The notes under the pieces are model-generated. The model did not search any database. It worked only from the letters and a program-made list of their open reading frames with translations, and had not been told where the DNA came from. A program made the position numbers and the translations under genes. Below are positions 23,287 to 60,409 of a DNA stretch of 64,000 nucleotides, one piece after another. Numbering within the stretch: the first letter of the stretch is position 1; every line of letters begins with the position of its first letter. Origin of the DNA: Spirochaetales bacterium (GTDB lineage Bacteria > Spirochaetota > Leptospiria > Leptospirales > Leptonemataceae). The stretch is from positions 620,001 to 684,000 of the forward strand of contig JABTUL010000001.1 in NCBI GenBank assembly GCA_015075425.1. Direction: 5' to 3'.

Positions 23287-24797
23287 CTATACCTTGAACA
23301 CCTTCATCCCCGGCGCCCAGAAAGTAGGCGTGGCGCACAAAGAAACTTTCTTCATTATAATCTGTATCAATGAACCAGAGGGCAATGCTGTCCGGGCCGC
23401 CGGAGACGATTTCGCCGGACGGGGTTTGAATACATCGATGCCGCTGATTTTTACCTGAATGAGGTCGTTCTTGCCCGGGATGATGCTGATGTCCGGTTCG
23501 CCAAAGACCACGAATAGATTGCCGTGGCCCGTGTTTTTGAGGTCCCCCGCCATGTGCAGATCGGGGTTCATACGGGCTTTGAGGACGGGGATGCGGCCCA
23601 GTTTGCTGAATTCCGCAGAATGCGCATCATAATTGAATGCGCAACTGATTAGCACGTCAAAGCCAGCGTCGCCGGCTTCGCGCGCGGCAGCCACGAGGTC
23701 CGGACGGGCCACCGTGCCAAATTCCGGGCCAATGAAAATGCCGGCGCGGCGGGTGGCCTTGCCCTCCTGGTAGATGCCCTCGGCGCAGACGTAGTGACCG
23801 GGCCAGGCGGTCAGAGCCGTAAATTCGAGGCGATCGGCTTTGTCGGCCTGCTGCACACCGGAGGTGCGCAGGTTTTCGAGAACCATGGCGGCAAAATCGG
23901 CCGGGTCCGCGTAGGTATCATAGTGGGCCTTGCGGCTGAGAGGATCGATGATCCCGCCCGCTTCATCCACACCCGGCACGCGGTGGGGCGAGATGCTTTC
24001 CACGGTGAAGGACCGGCCACGCGCACGCGGGAGTTTTCGTTATAAGGGCGATCATAAAGATATTCATACTCTGCTCTGGCGGCAATCGAAGCGTCGATGG
24101 CCTTCTGGCGGGCAATGCGGGCCTGCCACCACTTTGCATGCAGGTCGGTCGCGGCCTTGTTCAATTTGGTGTCGGCCTCGCGTGGGATTTCCCATTCCTC
24201 CCATTTTGTCTTGAGGGCCTGGTTGAGCTCTGTGCGCAGGGGTTCGAGGGTCTTCTGCCATTCTTCCCAGATGACATCGATCTCAGGGTTGTTAGCGATG
24301 GAACCGGATGTGATGCGGGGGCAACGCCGCACGACAAAGCCGTGGCGGATGTCGCCAGCCGTGGGGCGGTCTTTGGGAAGAGAGCCGGTGAGGTCGGCTT
24401 CTTTTTTCAGGCCTTCGGGGCTGTCTGCCAGCAGGTAGTATGGATAGCGGGCACCCATGAGGCGTGAGCGAGCCAGGGCCAGAGCCACGCGCGATGTGTC
24501 GATGGTGATGAAGCGTCGGCCCCACTCTTCGGCCACGTAGGCCGTGGTGCCGGAGCCGCAAGTGGGGTCGAGGACCAGGTCGCCGGGATCAGTGGCCATG
24601 AGGATGCAGCACTCAATAATTTTTGTCCCAGTTTGAACCACGTAGATTTTGTCGCCGCCCAAAGACCAGCCTGTGTCCGCCCAAAAATTGGAAATTGGTA
24701 AAGCTGAAAAATCTCCTGCATAGCGGACATAGCTACTGTAGCGCTGCAAGAAATATATTCCGGGATTGGTGAATTTGCCCGACTGCCAATTCACCAA
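23287..24797 (-). pseudogene. C-terminal part of a type III-like DNA methyltransferase, frameshifted
   Basis: Site-specific DNA (adenine) methyltransferase remnant. The SAM-binding motif LVLDPTCGSGTTAYVA is intact in the first segment (from 24797), with the conserved GWSLGGDKIYVVQTG block before it. The frame breaks near 24013: RVRVAGP continues as FTVESISPHRVPGVDEAG only after one base is restored. It breaks again near 23420, where the natural continuation GEIVSGGPDSIALWFIDTDYN lies in a third frame. The typical C-terminal end is missing. The matching N-terminal part lies 1.3 kb upstream at 26081-26716. The gene is not functional as read. Confidence 0.85.
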
Positions 24798-24852
24798 TCA
24801 CCATCGGATGGGTCACAATCTCATCCTCGGTGGCGGAATCAGAAAATGTCAG

Positions 24853-25499
<647 letters not shown>

Positions 25500-25637
25500 A
25501 CCGCTATCCAAAATTCCCCTCAAAGCCTGCCATCTGGAGCATATTTGATGACAATCATGTCTCTCCCACCTGTATAAGACCGCAGCGGGCTCTGTCCATG
25601 CAATGAAACTATATCACCTTCTGCATAGCCAAGGACG

Positions 25638-26090
25638 ATGAGCGTATTCCCGTTTGCGCGAACCGTTCTCTTGAAAGCAAATAATTACATGTGTTTTCGA
25701 TCACGGCTGGACCTATGGATGGGCCAGAGGATCGAAATCGAAATGACTACCTGGGAAATGTACCTACTTGACATGTGCAATCTGGAGACAGAGCGGTTTA
25801 ATCAGCGCAAGATGCTAAAAATGCTGAGGGCCATGTCAAATTCTCTCCATCCATTTTTCGCAGCGCACGAGGGTGAAGAATGCTGCGCAAGGGAATCCTA
25901 TGAAATGGTGCTACGAGGAAAATGGCCGGTGGAATGTCCGTTTGTAGTCATCGGCCCGCCATTGTTAAGAAAATTGCGCCGATTCAGACTGCCGGATAGC
26001 CCCTATTGCATTGCCGGGATGAATGCTGGAAGAGTTTTGCTGCGAAACTCACGCTCAGAAAAGGAAATCCCAGAGCAATATTATTTGTAA
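25638..26090 (+). CDS. hypothetical protein in the insertion segment
   Basis: 150 residues, unrecognised. It has charged and aromatic residues with several cysteines (two adjacent, EECCARES), no signal and no membrane helix. Codon use looks less G+C-rich than surrounding genes, consistent with acquired DNA. It ends over the last ten bases of the convergent methyltransferase fragment, so its C-terminus may be fortuitous. Could be a real accessory gene or a remnant. Confidence 0.4.
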   Translation: MSVFPFARTVLLKANNYMCFRSRLDLWMGQRIEIEMTTWEMYLLDMCNLETERFNQRKMLKMLRAMSNSLHPFFAAHEGEECCARESYEMVLRGKWPVECPFVVIGPPLLRKLRRFRLPDSPYCIAGMNAGRVLLRNSRSEKEIPEQYYL

Positions 26091-26716
26091 GTGGCCGCGC
26101 TGCGCACACGATGCACGTTCTCATCGCCGATCTGCACAAAAATGGAGCCTGATTCGCTCAAAAGATCACGGGCCACGGTCAGCCGATCACGCGGCGCGGC
26201 TGTGGACCACTGGAAATTGGAGTTGAACTTGATGCCGTAGGGCGGGTCGATGTAGATGCACTGCACCTGGCCGCGCAGGCCTTCGCGCTCCGCCAGAGAG
26301 GCCATGACTTGCAGCGAGTCGCCCAGGATCATGCGGTTGGTCCAGTTCTGCTGGTGGCTGTAGAATTCCGTGGATTTGCTTTTGTCTGCGAGGCCATTGA
26401 AATCGCCAAAGAGCGAAGGGGCGGCCTCTTCCTCGCGCGCGCGGCTCTGACGCAGAAGATCGTCGATCAGGACCTTGGGGTGGATTTTTTCCTGAATGTA
26501 GAGCGGCGGGGCCTGAACCACCAGATCGGCTGCGTCCTGCTCGTCCTTGCCGCGCCAGACCAGCTGCGGGTCAAGGTCGCGGTTGCGGCGGGCGTACTGG
26601 AGCTGGATGGGTGGGGGGGGCCGGGGTGTCCATGATCGATTCCAGTTCAGCCTGATATTGGTGCGGCTGGCCGTGGTATGGCGCAGGGTTTCGACGGATT
26701 TACGGGATTTGGACAA
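26081..26716 (-). pseudogene. N-terminal part of the type III-like DNA methyltransferase
   Basis: It starts MSKSRKSVETLRH and carries DLDPQLVWRGKDEQD, VVQAPPLYIQEKIHPK and NRMILGDSLQVMASL, all typical of the N-terminus of this methyltransferase group. The catalytic motif IYIDPPYGIKFNSNFQWS follows. After it a segment is deleted: QWSTAAP runs straight into RDRLTVARDLLSESGSIFVQIGDENVH. A frame change around residues 28-45 also seems likely (proline-rich run). The protein then ends. It corresponds to the first third of the gene completed at 23287-24797. Confidence 0.85.
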
Positions 26717-27143: not shown

Positions 27144-27447
27144 TTAGATTTCGCCATGTTCTCCTTCCGTGTTTAAAAGATAGAGGACTGCTTCCTTTAA
27201 TTTGGGCACATCGCGCATACCCGCATTCCACACACCCTCCAGATTGACTGTGAAGTATCCATGAATCAAACGATCGCGCATTCCGGCAATTTGTCGCCAC
27301 GGAATCTCAGGCCTCTGCGACTTCGTATTTTCAGAAAGCTGCTTCACGGCTTCCCCAATGACTTCCAGCGAGCGAATCAAAGCTTTTTGATTTTTTCGGG
27401 TCAAATCAAAGGCTTATAATGTGCGATAAATATAAAGTATCTCTCAT
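27144..27447 (-). pseudogene. hepT: HepT-like toxin gene with internal deletion
   Basis: The start ATG at 27447 overlaps the mntA stop (ATGA), as is usual for MntA-HepT pairs. It encodes MRDTLYLSHIISL, then hits a stop. The remainder resumes in another frame as ALIRSLEVIGEAVKQLSE and keeps the toxin motif RDRLIHGYF (R-x4-H-x-Y) through to 27144. About 25-30 residues between the two parts are missing. The free-standing frame from ATG 27404 (86 residues) keeps the RNase motif but lacks the N-terminal helix. HEPN-type HepT toxins are ribonucleases; this copy is probably inactive. Confidence 0.8.
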
Positions 27448-27722
27448 AATGGCTGGGCTGTGCGCAAGATAGCATCCTTGATGTAGGGGGATAGACCCTG
27501 CTCTGAAACAAGATCCACTTTTATCTTCAGTAAACTGGATAGCTCATCTTGAAGAGCGATTTCATCCAGAAGTGAGGCGTCCGGATTCATTTCTACAAGA
27601 ATATCTACATCTCCGGGATCGTCTCTGGTTAAAGCAGATCCAAAGATGCGGACGTTTCTGGCGTGGTAGACTCCGGCTACCTCAATGATGGAGTGCTTCA
27701 ACGTCTTTAGTTTTGCCAACAT
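27444..27722 (-). CDS. mntA: MntA-like minimal nucleotidyltransferase antitoxin
   Basis: 92 residues. The polymerase-beta-like motif is GSALTRDDPGDVDILVE (Gly-Ser followed by Asp-x-Asp), with a later acidic strand KVDLVSE that supplies the third carboxylate. MntA antitoxins AMPylate the tyrosine of HepT's R-x4-H-x-Y motif and so block the toxin. The gene looks intact. AGGAGG lies seven bases before ATG 27722, and a good promoter lies about 70 bp upstream. The downstream hepT gene is broken, so the antitoxin is left without its target here. Confidence 0.85.
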   Translation of the reverse strand: MLAKLKTLKHSIIEVAGVYHARNVRIFGSALTRDDPGDVDILVEMNPDASLLDEIALQDELSSLLKIKVDLVSEQGLSPYIKDAILRTAQPL

Positions 27723-28682: not shown

Positions 28683-30680
28683 CTAATGAGGCTTCTTGCC
28701 AGAAGCAAAGAAGACCAGAAGCATCCCGTAGGCCTCCGGCTGATCGGTCAGCGCATAAAAATTGCTCCGGATTTCCTCGACTTCCTGTTCAGAGGCTCCT
28801 GCTCTTTTTAGATGGTCGAACTTAAAGCCAAAGGCCAGATCAATGAAGGCTTTCATGCCAATCAGTTTTGAAGTAACGGAAAGGACTTTGAGACTGACCC
28901 CGGTAAGGCCACCCGAGACCAGAAGAGAGCGCAGCTCCCTACCGATTCGGCGGTTGCCTCCCAGGCTTTCCTGGATCCGTTCCGCATTTTCCTGCAAACG
29001 TTCGTATCCGTCAGGAGCCGGTTCCAGAAAGAGCATACCATCATCAATATCTTCAATGACTATAGTGCCACCGGGTCGGACTTTATCCTTCATGCTCTGC
29101 AAAGCCCGGGCCGGTTTTTCCAGATGCTGGAAGACAAAACGGGAGTAGGCCAGATCATAAAAGTCATTCTCAAGAGGCAGATCATAGATGCTGCCGGTTT
29201 GAAACAAAAGTCCTGTCGATTCCGGAGGACGGTGTTCGCGCAGAGCGATTTCGATGAGCGTTTCACTCAAATCGACTCCGTGCAAAAGCTCGGGCTGATA
29301 CGCGTTTGCCACTTCCATAGCCACGAACCCCGGCCCGCAGCCGGCATCGAGGATTCGCCTGGCACTGGCAAAGCCAAGGCGATCGTAGATGGATTTTTCC
29401 AGGGCAAAGCCTCCCCGGGCCTGCAGCCGGAGCCGTTCGATTTCTGCCGCACCATCGGCATATTCTTCTACAGTATAGGATCCTTTTGATGATTCCGTCA
29501 CGGGCACGTCCTCCTTTAGCATGGTTTGCTTCTCTATCATTCGATCAAGCAGTGTTCGCAGTTCCAGATAAGCGTTTGATTTGTCCAGAAATCGTTTTAC
29601 CAGAATGCTAAAAAGATTGATCAAGAGTTTCACGGCCAGATGAGGTGAATTGCGCTCCAGTTTACGAAATTCATTGGGCGTCAGGATCAAAAGCCTCGAT
29701 GGCTGGCGTACCTTAATCGTTGCGTTGCGTTCTCCCTGGGCGATGAATCCCAGCTCTCCAAAGATTTCTCCCTGGTTGAGAATAGAGACGGGTAAGGGTC
29801 CCTGAGGGGAATCGACCAGAGCTTCTGCCTGACCTTCAAGAATACAGAACATTCCCGAGCTTTCATCCCCCTGCTTGAAAACTATGTCACCTGGATCATA
29901 AGGAATCAGGTCCAGCTGATTGAGCAGTTGTTTGCATTCATCTTCAGAAAAATCTTTGAGAAATGTAAGCACTTCCCGGGGGTTTTTGTGCAGATCATTG
30001 CTGAAATCTTCCCAGAGCTGATCCACTTTGATGGAAAACAGAGGTTTGATATAGGCATATTCGCGGAAGTGCTGCCGGAAGTATTCCCAGGATTCGCGCG
30101 TATTGTTGTAGTTACGCGCGTAGCGCTGGAAGGGTGAGCCGATCAGTTTGAGATATTCTACATCGTCCAGTAAAAAGACCATGGGAATGACATTGCCATA
30201 GTCGGGATGGTTGATGTTTTCTTTGTAAATTCGGTAGCCCATCTGTTGATAGAGCCGGACAAGATGCGGGTTGGTATCGATAAAATCCAGTTTGATGCCC
30301 GTTTCCCGCATGAGCTTGTAGGCACTGACAGCCAGGTAACTGGCCGCCACGGAATTGCGGTGGCTGTGCTTGACCATGAGTTTGGTAGTCATGGAAATTC
30401 TGTCGGGGTAAAAGGGAGAAAATCTTTCCAGATTGTACAGGTCTTCACATTCCAGGGGACCGTCCTGGCGGAAGTTGGTCCGGATGGTGCCGATAATCTC
30501 TCCGTCTTCCTCAGCCAGGAAAAGGTGAGCTGTTTCATCGTAGGGCTCGCGAATCTTTTTATTTTCATGATCCGCAAAGGATTGTTTGCGGCCCATTTCC
30601 TCAACATACACCTGATAGCGCAAGCGGTAGATCCGCTCCCGGTCCTCCGGCGTGAGTGCTTCTTTGACGGTGAGACCCAT
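28683..30680 (-). CDS. three-domain fusion: FeeM-like N-acyltransferase, cyclic-nucleotide-binding domain, SAM methyltransferase
   Basis: 665 residues, apparently cytoplasmic. Residues 1-195 are a GNAT fold of the N-acyl amino acid synthase (FeeM)/LuxI-like type: RLRYQVYVEEMGR, EIIGTIR, RISMTTKLMVKHSHR and FIDTNPHLVRLYQQMGYR. Family members join an acyl chain from acyl-ACP to an amino acid. Residues 240-370 are a cyclic-nucleotide-binding domain with the phosphate cassette EIFGELGFIAQGERNATI (Glu309, Arg318). From about 425 a class I methyltransferase follows, with motif I ILDAGCGPGFVAMEVA (443-458) and acidic motif II HGVDLSETLIE. I chose ATG 30680; a TTG at 30758 is less likely. It is divergent from the adenylate cyclase at 30786. 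Inference: cAMP gates synthesis and methylation of an N-acyl product. Confidence 0.85.
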   Translation of the reverse strand: MGLTVKEALTPEDRERIYRLRYQVYVEEMGRKQSFADHENKKIREPYDETAHLFLAEEDGEIIGTIRTNFRQDGPLECEDLYNLERFSPFYPDRISMTTKLMVKHSHRNSVAASYLAVSAYKLMRETGIKLDFIDTNPHLVRLYQQMGYRIYKENINHPDYGNVIPMVFLLDDVEYLKLIGSPFQRYARNYNNTRESWEYFRQHFREYAYIKPLFSIKVDQLWEDFSNDLHKNPREVLTFLKDFSEDECKQLLNQLDLIPYDPGDIVFKQGDESSGMFCILEGQAEALVDSPQGPLPVSILNQGEIFGELGFIAQGERNATIKVRQPSRLLILTPNEFRKLERNSPHLAVKLLINLFSILVKRFLDKSNAYLELRTLLDRMIEKQTMLKEDVPVTESSKGSYTVEEYADGAAEIERLRLQARGGFALEKSIYDRLGFASARRILDAGCGPGFVAMEVANAYQPELLHGVDLSETLIEIALREHRPPESTGLLFQTGSIYDLPLENDFYDLAYSRFVFQHLEKPARALQSMKDKVRPGGTIVIEDIDDGMLFLEPAPDGYERLQENAERIQESLGGNRRIGRELRSLLVSGGLTGVSLKVLSVTSKLIGMKAFIDLAFGFKFDHLKRAGASEQEVEEIRSNFYALTDQPEAYGMLLVFFASGKKPH

Positions 30681-30785
30681 GCTGTATTTTCGGCCACGCT
30701 GTCCCCCGTCTGAAAAGCCGGTAGCGCTCTCTCTTTTGCATGAAACTGCTTTACACAATTCTCCTTGCTCTGTGGTATGTGGTTC

Positions 30786-32336
30786 ATGGATGTACTCAAA
30801 GAGCTAAGTTCCGTAAAGGCTTCCGGTCCGGCTATCCGTGAGGTAGATGCTGCCGAAGCGGGAGATGCCCGGCAGTTCAGCCTTTCTGAATACTACCGTG
30901 AGCGACTGCGAGAAATTGCCCGCCAGGGGGAAATGCGTGCCGAACGCTTTGCCACCGGCTTCCGCTTCGGACTGTACGGACTTCTCGAGCTTTTTGCTGT
31001 TCTTTCATACCTGGGCGGTCGTCCCATCTTTGAGTTCATCACCCTGAGCGGGGCAGTTGGCGTCCTGTTGTTCTACAATCTCATCGCCTATCTGGTGCTC
31101 CGTCGCCCGCAGGGTTATTATCCGTTCTTGAAATATTTTTCAACGTTTCTGGAAATCGGCGTGTTAACATTCATCATTGGCTTTTTGACCTACTCGCAGA
31201 AAAATCCCACCATGCCCTACACGGGCGCCATAACCTTGATTTACTTTATTTTCATTGCTCTGGCCTCTATCCGCAACGATCGTAACGTAATCCTTTTTGC
31301 TCTGGGTTTAACTCTTGTGCAGTACGGATTTCTGTGTTTCTATTTTCTGCCGGAGATGAATGTCATCCAGGGCCGCCTGGCGGACCTGACCGATTCCATT
31401 GTCCCGCAGCTGGTTGGTTCCGGGGAAAAATTCACCATTGTATCCATTGCCACCATGGGTGTCATCCTCAAGCTTCTCTATATGCTCAGTACCGGGGCAC
31501 TCATCGTTTATGCCTTGATCAATTCGCGCCGCACGTCCGCGCGCCAGGCTTCATTGATCTTTGATACAGAGAAGGAAGCTATCTTAAAAGAAAAACAAAA
31601 ATCAGATTATCTGTTGCTGAATATTTTACCCGAACAGATCGCCGCAGAACTCAAAGAATCGGGCCGTGCAGATCCGCGGCACTTCAAGGAAATCACTGTT
31701 CTTTTTACAGATTTTAAAGGTTTTACCCAGCTGGCGGAGCAGATGACACCCGAGCAACTGGTGCATGAACTCGATGTGTGTTTCCGCTATTTTGATGATA
31801 TCATGGGCAAATACGGACTGGAAAAAATCAAAACGATTGGCGATGCCTACATGTGTGCTGGCGGGCTGCCCCGGAAGAATGTGACCCATGCTGTCGATTG
31901 TGTTCTGGCTGCTCTCGAGATTCAATCTTTCATGGAAGAGCAAAAGAATGCCAAAGAAGCGGCTGGCGAACCCTACTGGGAGCTGCGCCTGGGCATCCAC
32001 ACCGGTAATGTTGTGGCCGGTATTGTGGGTAAGAAGAAGTTTGCTTACGATATCTGGGGTGATACGGTCAATCTGGCCAGCCGGATGGAGTCTTCCGGAG
32101 CTCCCGGCCGGATCAATATTTCCAGCAGCACCTATGAGCTGGTAAAGGAATTTTTTGTCTGCCAGTACAGAGGGGAGATTGAAGCCAAAAATAAGGGGAA
32201 AGTAAAGATGTACTTTGTGCACAGTATCATTGCCGAACTATCCGTGGACGGGCTTGGAATTCTGCCCAATCAGTACTTTCTGGAGAAGCTGGGTGCCCTG
32301 CGGGCCAGCAAATCAGAGCACAGGGAAAGCGCCTGA
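30786..32336 (+). CDS. membrane class III adenylate cyclase
   Basis: 516 residues. About six membrane helices lie between residues 45 and 250, then a short coiled linker (FDTEKEAILKEKQKSDYLLLNILPEQIA) and the class III cyclase domain (about 295-490). The metal-binding Asp is in VLFTDFKGFTQ and a second in IKTIGDAYMC. The adenine-selecting Lys (EKIKTIGD) and Asp (YDIWGDTVN), plus Asn and Arg in TVNLASRMES, indicate ATP rather than GTP. All catalytic residues look present. I chose ATG 30786; alternatives are at 30765 and 30777. It is divergent, about 105 bp apart, from a gene with a CNB domain, and its stop overlaps the next start (TGATG). Confidence 0.92.
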   Translation: MDVLKELSSVKASGPAIREVDAAEAGDARQFSLSEYYRERLREIARQGEMRAERFATGFRFGLYGLLELFAVLSYLGGRPIFEFITLSGAVGVLLFYNLIAYLVLRRPQGYYPFLKYFSTFLEIGVLTFIIGFLTYSQKNPTMPYTGAITLIYFIFIALASIRNDRNVILFALGLTLVQYGFLCFYFLPEMNVIQGRLADLTDSIVPQLVGSGEKFTIVSIATMGVILKLLYMLSTGALIVYALINSRRTSARQASLIFDTEKEAILKEKQKSDYLLLNILPEQIAAELKESGRADPRHFKEITVLFTDFKGFTQLAEQMTPEQLVHELDVCFRYFDDIMGKYGLEKIKTIGDAYMCAGGLPRKNVTHAVDCVLAALEIQSFMEEQKNAKEAAGEPYWELRLGIHTGNVVAGIVGKKKFAYDIWGDTVNLASRMESSGAPGRINISSSTYELVKEFFVCQYRGEIEAKNKGKVKMYFVHSIIAELSVDGLGILPNQYFLEKLGALRASKSEHRESA

Positions 32337-32830
32337 TGCGCGCACCGACATTCTTGCTCTGTTTTGCCCTGACCTGCTGTCAGATCGGTGACTCCCTGGA
32401 TATTCAGTTACCGGATTCCTTGAAGGGTAAGCAGGCAGGCGATCTCCTGGAAAACACCATCGCCGTACATTTTTTAGCGGGCGGCCGGCTTTTTTGCGAT
32501 CAGTTCACGACCAGCATCTGTCATGACAATCTGGGAAGCTCTCTGGCAGAAGCGGCCATTCTTGCCGGCCAGGAGAGTCGCAAGCGTCTTGGCCTGGAAG
32601 CTACTCGTTCTTATCCTGTGCCGGCCATCAAAGGCTGCCAGGACCGGCTGGGACTACTCGCCCAGGTGATTGCGCTCACGCATCTGGATTCTCGTAAGAC
32701 CTGTAATGCGGTGGGTTGTTCGCCGCCGCCAGCGGGCGAGCCGGGAGTGGCTGCTCTTTCCCTGGCGGCTCTGTCCGTGACGCAATGTCGGCTGGAGCCG
32801 GGGGCGCTTTTCTCAGCCGGATTCTTATAG
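32336..32830 (+). CDS. exported protein of unknown function, cysteine-rich
   Basis: 164 residues. The N-terminal stretch MRAPTFLLCFALTCCQIG is a short signal with a lipobox-like cysteine (Cys14 or Cys15). The mature protein has several further cysteines (in FCDQF, SICHDN, KGCQD, KTCNAVGC and TQC) that could pair as disulfides. No family recognised. Its start overlaps the cyclase stop by one base, so it is translationally coupled to the cyclase and may be related to sensing. It ends one base before the transporter start. Confidence 0.65.
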   Translation: MRAPTFLLCFALTCCQIGDSLDIQLPDSLKGKQAGDLLENTIAVHFLAGGRLFCDQFTTSICHDNLGSSLAEAAILAGQESRKRLGLEATRSYPVPAIKGCQDRLGLLAQVIALTHLDSRKTCNAVGCSPPPAGEPGVAALSLAALSVTQCRLEPGALFSAGFL

Positions 32831-32831
32831 T

Positions 32832-33761
32832 TTGTTTATCAGACTTTTTCCGCTGTGGCTTCTCTTTTGCACTGGCCTTGCTCTGTACCATCCCCCGCTG
32901 GTCGTCTGGTTCAAAGGAGATCTGATTCCTCTGGGGCTTGGCATGATCATGCTGGGCATGGGACTTACCCTGACCTTCGCCGATTTTGAACGCATCTTCC
33001 GATTGCCCACGAGAGTTCTGGCTGGCTTCGTCATCCAGTACACGGTGATGCCACTGTGCGGCTTTCTTCTGGCCCATGCCATTTCCCTGCCGCTACCGCT
33101 GGCTACGGGTCTCATACTGGTTGCCTGTTGCCCGGGCGGGACGGCCTCCAATGTAATTGCCTTCCTGGCCCGCGCCGATGTCCCGCTATCGGTCACTCTC
33201 ACTGCCCTTTCTACTTTACTTGCGGCTCTCATCACACCTGCCTGGACCTATGTACTGACAGACACACAGATTGATGTCTCTTTTACACAGATGTCCCTTT
33301 CTACTGCCACGGTCGTGGTGCTGCCCGTGCTGCTTGGCCTTCTCTGCAATGCATTCCTCCCGGCATTGGGTGCCCATCTGCAGAAAATTGCCGGACCCGT
33401 GGCTGTTGTTTTTATCTGTCTGATCGTTGCCTCGATTACAGCCCAGAACCAGGATGCCATTTTTCAGGCTGCCCTGCCGATTTTCTTTGCAGCCCTTTGT
33501 TTGCATGCTCTGGGTTTTGCCGCAGGCTATGCTCTTATGTGGCTCCTCTTTCGCAATCATGCCGATGGAGCGATCGTTGCCCGCACTGTATCCATAGAAA
33601 CGGGCATGCAAAATTCAGGACTGGCTGTCTTTCTGGCGCTCAAACATTTTTCCGATCCATTGACTGCCTTACCCGGTGCGCTTTCGAGTGTGATTCATTC
33701 TTTAATCGGCAGTGCTCTTGCCTGGCACTGGTCCCGCAAAACGGTTTACGGATCGGGCTAA
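32832..33761 (+). CDS. bile acid:sodium symporter (BASS) family transporter
   Basis: 309 residues with about ten membrane helices. The sodium-binding and family motifs are present: GLGMIMLGMGLTLTF, VACCPGGTASNVIAFLARAD (crossover motif) and ETGMQNSGLAVFLALKHF. Bacterial BASS proteins carry organic acids such as pantoate, pyruvate or bile acids in a Na+-dependent manner; the substrate here cannot be told. TTG start two bases after the preceding stop, consistent with one operon 30786-33761. Confidence 0.9.
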   Translation: MFIRLFPLWLLFCTGLALYHPPLVVWFKGDLIPLGLGMIMLGMGLTLTFADFERIFRLPTRVLAGFVIQYTVMPLCGFLLAHAISLPLPLATGLILVACCPGGTASNVIAFLARADVPLSVTLTALSTLLAALITPAWTYVLTDTQIDVSFTQMSLSTATVVVLPVLLGLLCNAFLPALGAHLQKIAGPVAVVFICLIVASITAQNQDAIFQAALPIFFAALCLHALGFAAGYALMWLLFRNHADGAIVARTVSIETGMQNSGLAVFLALKHFSDPLTALPGALSSVIHSLIGSALAWHWSRKTVYGSG

Positions 33762-60136: not shown

Positions 60137-60409
60137 TGATGAACGAAGAAGAGCCCGGGTCATCCCCTCTGGGATCTACGAATTGGCGTCCACCCCGGGC
60201 CCGTAGTCGGTGGCGTGATCGGCACCAACAAGTTTGCCTACGTTATCTCAGGGGACACTGTGAACACGGCCAGCAGAATGGAGTCCGCGGGTGTTCCAGG
60301 GAAGATAAACATATCCGGGGATACCTTCCAGCTCGTGCAAGATTTCTTTGAGTGCCAATACCGCGGCAAGGTTGGACGCGGCTGGATGGAGCGTATCAAC
60401 TCCTCTTGA
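60137..60409 (+). pseudogene. class III nucleotidyl cyclase fragment
   Basis: Only the C-terminal part of a cyclase catalytic domain remains. MNEEEPGSSPL is in one frame. After a frameshift near 60170, DLRIGVHPGPVVGGVIGTNKFAY and SGDTVNTASRMESAG-VPGKINIS follow to a stop at 60409. The last part resembles the cyclase at 30786 (DTVNLASRMESSGAPGRINIS), so it may be debris of a paralogue. The N-terminal two thirds, with the first metal-binding Asp, is missing. Confidence 0.8.

Follow-up and report, generated by a model that had tools for sequence, protein, structure and literature searches.

The 64,000-nucleotide stretch analyzed here (the window; contig JABTUL010000001.1, positions 620,001 to 684,000, from the 4.13-Mb genome of a Spirochaetales bacterium of the Leptonemataceae) encodes on its reverse strand a 665-residue protein, P0001, in which a GNAT acyltransferase domain assigned to the FeeM type is joined to a cyclic-nucleotide-binding (CNB) domain and an S-adenosylmethionine (SAM)-dependent methyltransferase. 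The divergent gene P0002 encodes a membrane sensor fused to a class III adenylate cyclase. The only full-length orthologue of the fusion that we found, in a genome designated G024, stands beside a related sensor that carries a phosphatase. The locus is organized as follows:

28683..30680, (-) strand: GNAT-CNB-methyltransferase fusion gene P0001, 665 aa (Pfam; orthologue in G024)
30192..30632, (-) strand: FeeM-type GNAT domain of P0001, residues 17-163 (PF21926; match of the AlphaFold2 [AF2] model to FeeM; conservation)
29658..29903, (-) strand: CNB domain of P0001, residues 260-341 (PF00027; structure match)
28692..29471, (-) strand: SAM-dependent methyltransferase domain of P0001, residues about 404-663 (Methyltransf_11; 3mgg)
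30681..30785, no strand: divergent intergenic region between P0001 and P0002, 105 bp
30786..32336, (+) strand: P0002, membrane sensor and class III adenylate cyclase (Pfam; alignment)
30786..31610, (+) strand: P0003, the sensor half of P0002, probably a six-helix membrane domain (homology to the G024 partner)
31677..32222, (+) strand: cyclase catalytic domain of P0002 (PF00211; alignment to solved cyclases)

Three domains in a single chain

A preliminary description of this DNA, made from the sequence alone, had proposed the three-domain layout of P0001, and profile searches with the protein bore it out, each Pfam match (PF21926, PF00027, and Methyltransf_11) lying above its cut-off. PF21926 (FeeM) was the best-scoring Pfam GNAT model (residues 17-163; 48.3 bits versus a cut-off of 27), and the broader acyltransferase model PF13444 also matched, at 33.4 bits. 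The AF2 model of P0001 is good for residues 1-350 (predicted local distance difference test [pLDDT] mostly 80-97) and declines beyond, the methyltransferase part being poor. Ranking of solved structures against its GNAT domain placed FeeM (2g0b) first (Z 19.4, root mean square deviation 2.1 Å, 168 residues), followed by ordinary GNATs at Z 17.7 or less; the N-acyl homoserine lactone (AHL) synthases LasI and TofI matched by fold only (Z 16.6-16.7), and the LuxI autoinducer-synthase Pfam model was not among the 19 Pfam families matching at E<=1. In a motif table of 48 aligned GNAT-CNB members, one locus of which was entered twice (L041/L186), R21 and D48 are each retained in 47 members and R67 in 44, with E28 and R108 as further conserved positions. 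The canonical (Q/R)xxGx(G/A) loop was missing in most members in a simple pattern scan, which was not used as proof. The best Pfam GNAT model and the best solved-structure match agree with the earlier view of this segment as FeeM-like rather than as an ordinary acetyltransferase, and Pfam and the predicted fold together classify it as FeeM-type.

The CNB domain was recognized by PF00027 (cNMP_binding; residues 260-341, 57.6 bits versus a cut-off of 27.5), and its model was matched by Thermus thermophilus CAP with Z 18.2 over 134 residues. The phosphate-cassette Glu and Arg reported previously as intact are indeed present, as E309 (codon 29754-29756) and R318 (codon 29727-29729); the phosphate-binding Arg is retained in 35 of the 48 aligned members. 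Judging from these residues, nucleotide binding by P0001 is plausible, and it would not be universal for the GNAT-CNB architecture.

The C-terminal part matches Methyltransf_11 over residues 444-542 (63.1 bits versus a cut-off of 21.2), which identifies a class I methyltransferase with motif I LDAGCGPG and family motif EDIDDG; it also matched the solved structure 3mgg at 1.1e-20. Residues 381-665 served as the query in seven genomes. In two other spirochaetes (G033 and G043), the sole match at E<=1e-6 adjoins the SpoIIE gene of a GNAT-CNB gene run. Acanthopleuribacter yielded two strong matches. One of them is free-standing (37-38% identity, E 1.5e-51), and its gene is divergent from a GNAT-CNB-P450 fusion gene; the second (C103) has no acyltransferase nearby, so only one of the two copies supports the link in this organism. 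A D(I/V)DD motif is common to these methyltransferases. The pairing of acyltransferase and methyltransferase pointed out earlier thus recurs, fused or adjacent in three lineages and fused in two genera, and this alternation between fusion in one lineage and adjacency in others supports the action of both enzymes on one product. A scan of viral contigs with the P0001 methyltransferase returned no match. Plasmid searches yielded generic methyltransferases or CNB matches standing alone and nothing else; no acyltransferase was listed next to the annotated ones that were examined.

The divergent sensor and its counterpart in G024

P0002 begins with an ATG at position 30786 and matches PF00211 with 189 bits. 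The catalytic residues of class III cyclases are well established, and alignment of P0002 to solved mammalian adenylate cyclases located the metal-binding Asp residues (D310 and D354), the Lys/Asp adenine pair (K350 and D423), N430, and R434 (all numbered one above the protein's own numbering). Hydropathy profiles gave 5 clear membrane peaks in the P0002 sensor, against 6 when the homologous domain of G024 was profiled. The proposed description of this neighbor as a six-helix adenylate cyclase with all catalytic residues was therefore confirmed for the residues, and six membrane helices are likely. Neither a sigma-70-like nor a CRP-like site was found in the 105-bp gap; across the window, CRP-like sites at 2 mismatches occurred with a frequency near chance.

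The orthologue of P0001 in G024 (locus L042), a genome of the same order and a different family, is 50% identical over residues 1-661 and was the only further full-length fusion among 393 genomes of the phylum. Its divergent neighbor lies 134 bp away, and the first ~260 residues of this partner are 47% identical over 253 aa to the sensor half of P0002. A search of 61 genomes with the sensor half gave the G024 partner as the sole strong match (49%, E 1e-68), the next being a 29% paralogue in the genome of the window, with six transmembrane helices and a cyclase-like tail. The C-terminal half of the G024 partner is a SiaA-like SpoIIE/PP2C phosphatase (99.6 bits). Since the sensor stands beside both fusion genes with differing outputs, receptor and synthase are kept as a pair across the two genomes although the chemistry of the output is not the same. 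The regulatory wiring thus appears swapped, with one type of receptor coupled to adenylate cyclase in the window and to a PP2C/SpoIIE phosphatase in G024.

Two further genes were noted around these loci. The 29% sensor paralogue lies within locus L051 (contig C2 of the window's genome, 54000-66000), where it is divergent from a cyclase with six transmembrane helices. At the 3' end of the G024 fusion orthologue (L042, 6473-7822) lies an amino acid permease gene, whose product could supply an amino acid substrate.

Partners of the acyltransferase core and other genes of the window

We surveyed about 46 loci carrying the GNAT-CNB core. Within the class, 4 of 48 genomes have it, the genome of the window being the only member of its family in that sample; for the class of L030 (named alphaproteobacterial), the figure is 25 of 385 genomes. 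The core is also present in several cyanobacteria, in few of the genomes from the Acanthopleuribacter phylum, and in 1 of 299 Sporomusa-phylum genomes. This patchy distribution suggests horizontal spread or repeated loss. The window and G024 sequences grouped with full support in the tree, the deeper order of which is unsure. One genome of the alphaproteobacterial survey carries a tandem pair of GNAT-CNB genes (L161, 1628-4189).

The genes accompanying the core differ among lineages. Cyanobacterial members have a PF14518-like (haem-oxygenase-like) gene next downstream, and partners of the PF14518 type also occur at L129, L151, and L171 and with the verrucomicrobial GNATs L034 and L037, being fused in L037. 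Members of the Sporomusa type are partnered by a PAS histidine kinase and mostly also by a B12 radical-SAM gene, and many alphaproteobacterial members are placed between housekeeping genes. In two relatives from the class (L043 and L044), the GNAT-CNB gene forms one run with SiaA-like SpoIIE, slr1658-superfamily, and slr1659-superfamily genes, which suggests a partner-switching module controlling an acyltransferase. By its gene contexts, the core is classed as a patchy family present in several phyla with interchangeable tailoring enzymes, namely methyltransferase, P450, haem-oxygenase-like oxidases, and B12 radical-SAM proteins.

Downstream of P0002 in the window are two further features:

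32336..32830, (+) strand: short Cys-rich open reading frame (ORF) overlapping the cyclase stop; full-gene status doubtful, membership in the system unproven
32832..33761, (+) strand: BASS-type transporter gene (PF01758); a neighbor, membership in the system unproven

The preliminary description had listed both after the cyclase, the first as a coupled exported protein and the second as a possible mover of the product. The start of the Cys-rich ORF does overlap the cyclase stop (ATGA), as expected of a coupled gene, but codon usage supports its first half only and no Pfam family matched; the frame as read may not represent a complete gene. The BASS transporter is present (PF01758, 153 bits) but is absent beside the G024 orthologue (L042 neighborhood), and nothing therefore ties it to the system. 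Elsewhere in the window, a short ORF of 88 aa (60170-60373, + strand) contains an incomplete class III cyclase domain and is probably a gene remnant. The adjoining genes for a HepT-like RNase and an MntA-type nucleotidyltransferase (27144-27722, - strand) likely form a toxin-antitoxin pair, and a DNA methyltransferase-like gene broken over several frames (23287-26716, - strand) is seemingly a decayed restriction-modification gene, as judged by eye only.

Interpretation and comparison with known systems

We tentatively read P0001, with somewhat less than even confidence, as a synthase-methyltransferase for N-acyl amino acids (or amines) that is under regulation and linked to a membrane sensor, the CNB domain setting its activity. 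In this cytosolic protein, the FeeM-like GNAT domain would acylate the amino group of an amino acid or of a comparable amine, with acyl carrier protein as the probable donor of the chain. The C-terminal methyltransferase would then methylate the acylated product, a carboxyl methyl ester being one possible outcome. The mid-chain CNB domain would bind a cyclic nucleotide and set activity; in this genome with 56 cyclase-domain matches, the ligand is most likely cyclic AMP (cAMP). The divergently encoded receptor, probably of six helices, would signal when to work, through adenylate cyclase here and through the PP2C/SpoIIE phosphatase in G024. We infer the substrates, the methylation site, the ligand, and the direction of control. 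Supply by the neighboring cyclase of the cAMP that gates P0001 is plausible, and this arrangement is not conserved. Possible but more doubtful is the fuller proposal that one chain both produces an acyl amino acid signal and methylates it, that a second messenger switches this chain directly via the built-in CNB domain, and that receptor and synthase have stayed together in evolution while the receptor output was exchanged between cyclase and PP2C phosphatase.

Several observations weigh against the reading of P0001 as a sensor-linked, nucleotide-gated synthase. A sequence-profile search with the GNAT domain only gave weak matches, to ordinary GNATs and AHL synthases, and did not list FeeM's own chain, so it is Pfam and the fold that carry the FeeM assignment. 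Pfam and NCBIfam family models identify the methyltransferase as a generic one, and AF2 modeling of this domain alone (2 sequences) gave a pLDDT of 37.5, on which we base no fold-based claim. The CNB Arg is replaced by Ser in 5 of 5 cyanobacterial members and by His, Gln, or Asp in Bacillota (Sporomusa-type) members, so that a CNB domain can persist without nucleotide binding; residue 319 of P0001, next after this Arg, is Asn instead of the Thr/Ser of most members, so that the ligand may differ from cAMP. Finally, the G024 partner has no cyclase domain, and among the surveyed loci a cyclase is the immediate neighbor only in the window and, in convergent orientation, at the distant locus L179. 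The preliminary description had held that its circuit would fail if fusion gene and cyclase were neighbors in no relative; this applies to the cyclase but not to the sensor half, which G024 keeps beside the fusion gene. A conserved circuit in which membrane sensing sets cAMP is not supported, as the sensor of the orthologue carries a phosphatase and the GNAT-CNB relatives are without a divergent cyclase.

These results bear on the first alternative, which keeps the same enzyme and changes its control, and which we consider possible though rather unlikely. The divergent gene would not act via cAMP made next door; the receptor would work by transcription or through a partner-switching phosphatase cascade, and the CNB domain would sense the pooled cAMP of many cyclases or another cyclic nucleotide. 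The replacement of the cyclase by a SiaA-like SpoIIE phosphatase at the orthologous locus, the SiaA-like SpoIIE, slr1658-, and slr1659-superfamily regulators beside GNAT-CNB in class relatives, and the abundance of cyclase matches all fit this alternative. However, a complete cyclase on the sensor and a complete CNB motif in P0001 make the direct link the simplest reading of the window.

Two other alternatives concern the product. It is quite unlikely that the product of P0001 is a membrane aminolipid, of an OlsB-like N-acyl ornithine type whose head group is methylated, and not a diffusible signal. PF13444 does match P0001, and one relative, L030, weakly matches the OlsB model; of 44 NCBIfam families for P0001 itself, the 25 best did not include OlsB. 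The FeeM model outscores PF13444, however, and the neighborhood showed no O-acyltransferase of the OlsA or OlsF kind. Slightly less probable still is that P0001 acylates proteins under cAMP control in the manner of mycobacterial Pat, its methyltransferase also acting on proteins. Rv0998 provides a precedent for CNB and GNAT domains in one chain, and the profile also matches ordinary GNATs. Nevertheless, the domain order is reversed in P0001, the NCBIfam Pat model NF058543 scored 25.8 bits against a cut-off of 460 and on the CNB domain only, FeeM gives the top match among both GNAT models and solved structures, and the partners of the relatives are enzymes that tailor small molecules (P450, PF14518, and B12 radical SAM). 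That cyclase and fusion are chance neighbors without functional link is very improbable. Positions within 3 kb of one of the many cyclase matches make up about 9% of the genome, and an adjacent cyclase alone is weak evidence of a link, but the sensor half adjoins the sole fusion orthologue, which belongs to another family of the order, and the 61 genomes hold no further strong match to it.

Acyl-amide signal synthases are mostly described as transcriptionally controlled. Instant control would be possible for a synthase that carries a second-messenger pocket itself. The family is broad, and its combination of a single core with tailoring enzymes that vary suggests that several phyla hold unexplored lipids. 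Our literature search, made mostly without subscription papers, found none joining an N-acyl amino acid synthase (or autoinducer synthase) with cyclic nucleotide binding. cAMP signaling does occur in the group of Leptospira kobayashii, whose motility is controlled by cAMP from a light-activated cyclase (PMC9043183).

Among known systems, FeeM-type N-acyl amino acid synthases (2g0b) share with P0001 a GNAT fold of matching size, with the best Pfam and structure match, and the conserved RxxVYxxE, D48, and R67 positions. The solved FeeM chain is a single 184-residue domain, whereas the GNAT domain of P0001 is fused to CNB and methyltransferase domains. The mycobacterial Pat enzymes Rv0998 and MSMEG_5458 also combine CNB and GNAT domains in one chain and are directly activated by cAMP (PMC5861322), but they have the CNB domain first, a protein lysine substrate, and no methyltransferase. 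Stieleriacine-type loci of Stieleria, in which an N-acyl amino acid synthase gene lies near a methyltransferase gene (PMC12479983), resemble P0001 in this pairing; they differ in having separate genes, with no CNB domain reported, and their ThiF and nitroreductase partners were not seen here. The N-acyl alanine methyl esters of Roseovarius, known without a synthase gene (PMC11580390), are the kind of product that the P0001 pair could make, a likeness by product kind only. Partner-switching operons of the SiaA/slr1658/slr1659 type find their counterpart in the GNAT-CNB runs of the two class relatives and in the G024 sensor with its SiaA-like phosphatase; unlike these operons, the gene in the window has an adenylate cyclase in place of the phosphatase output.

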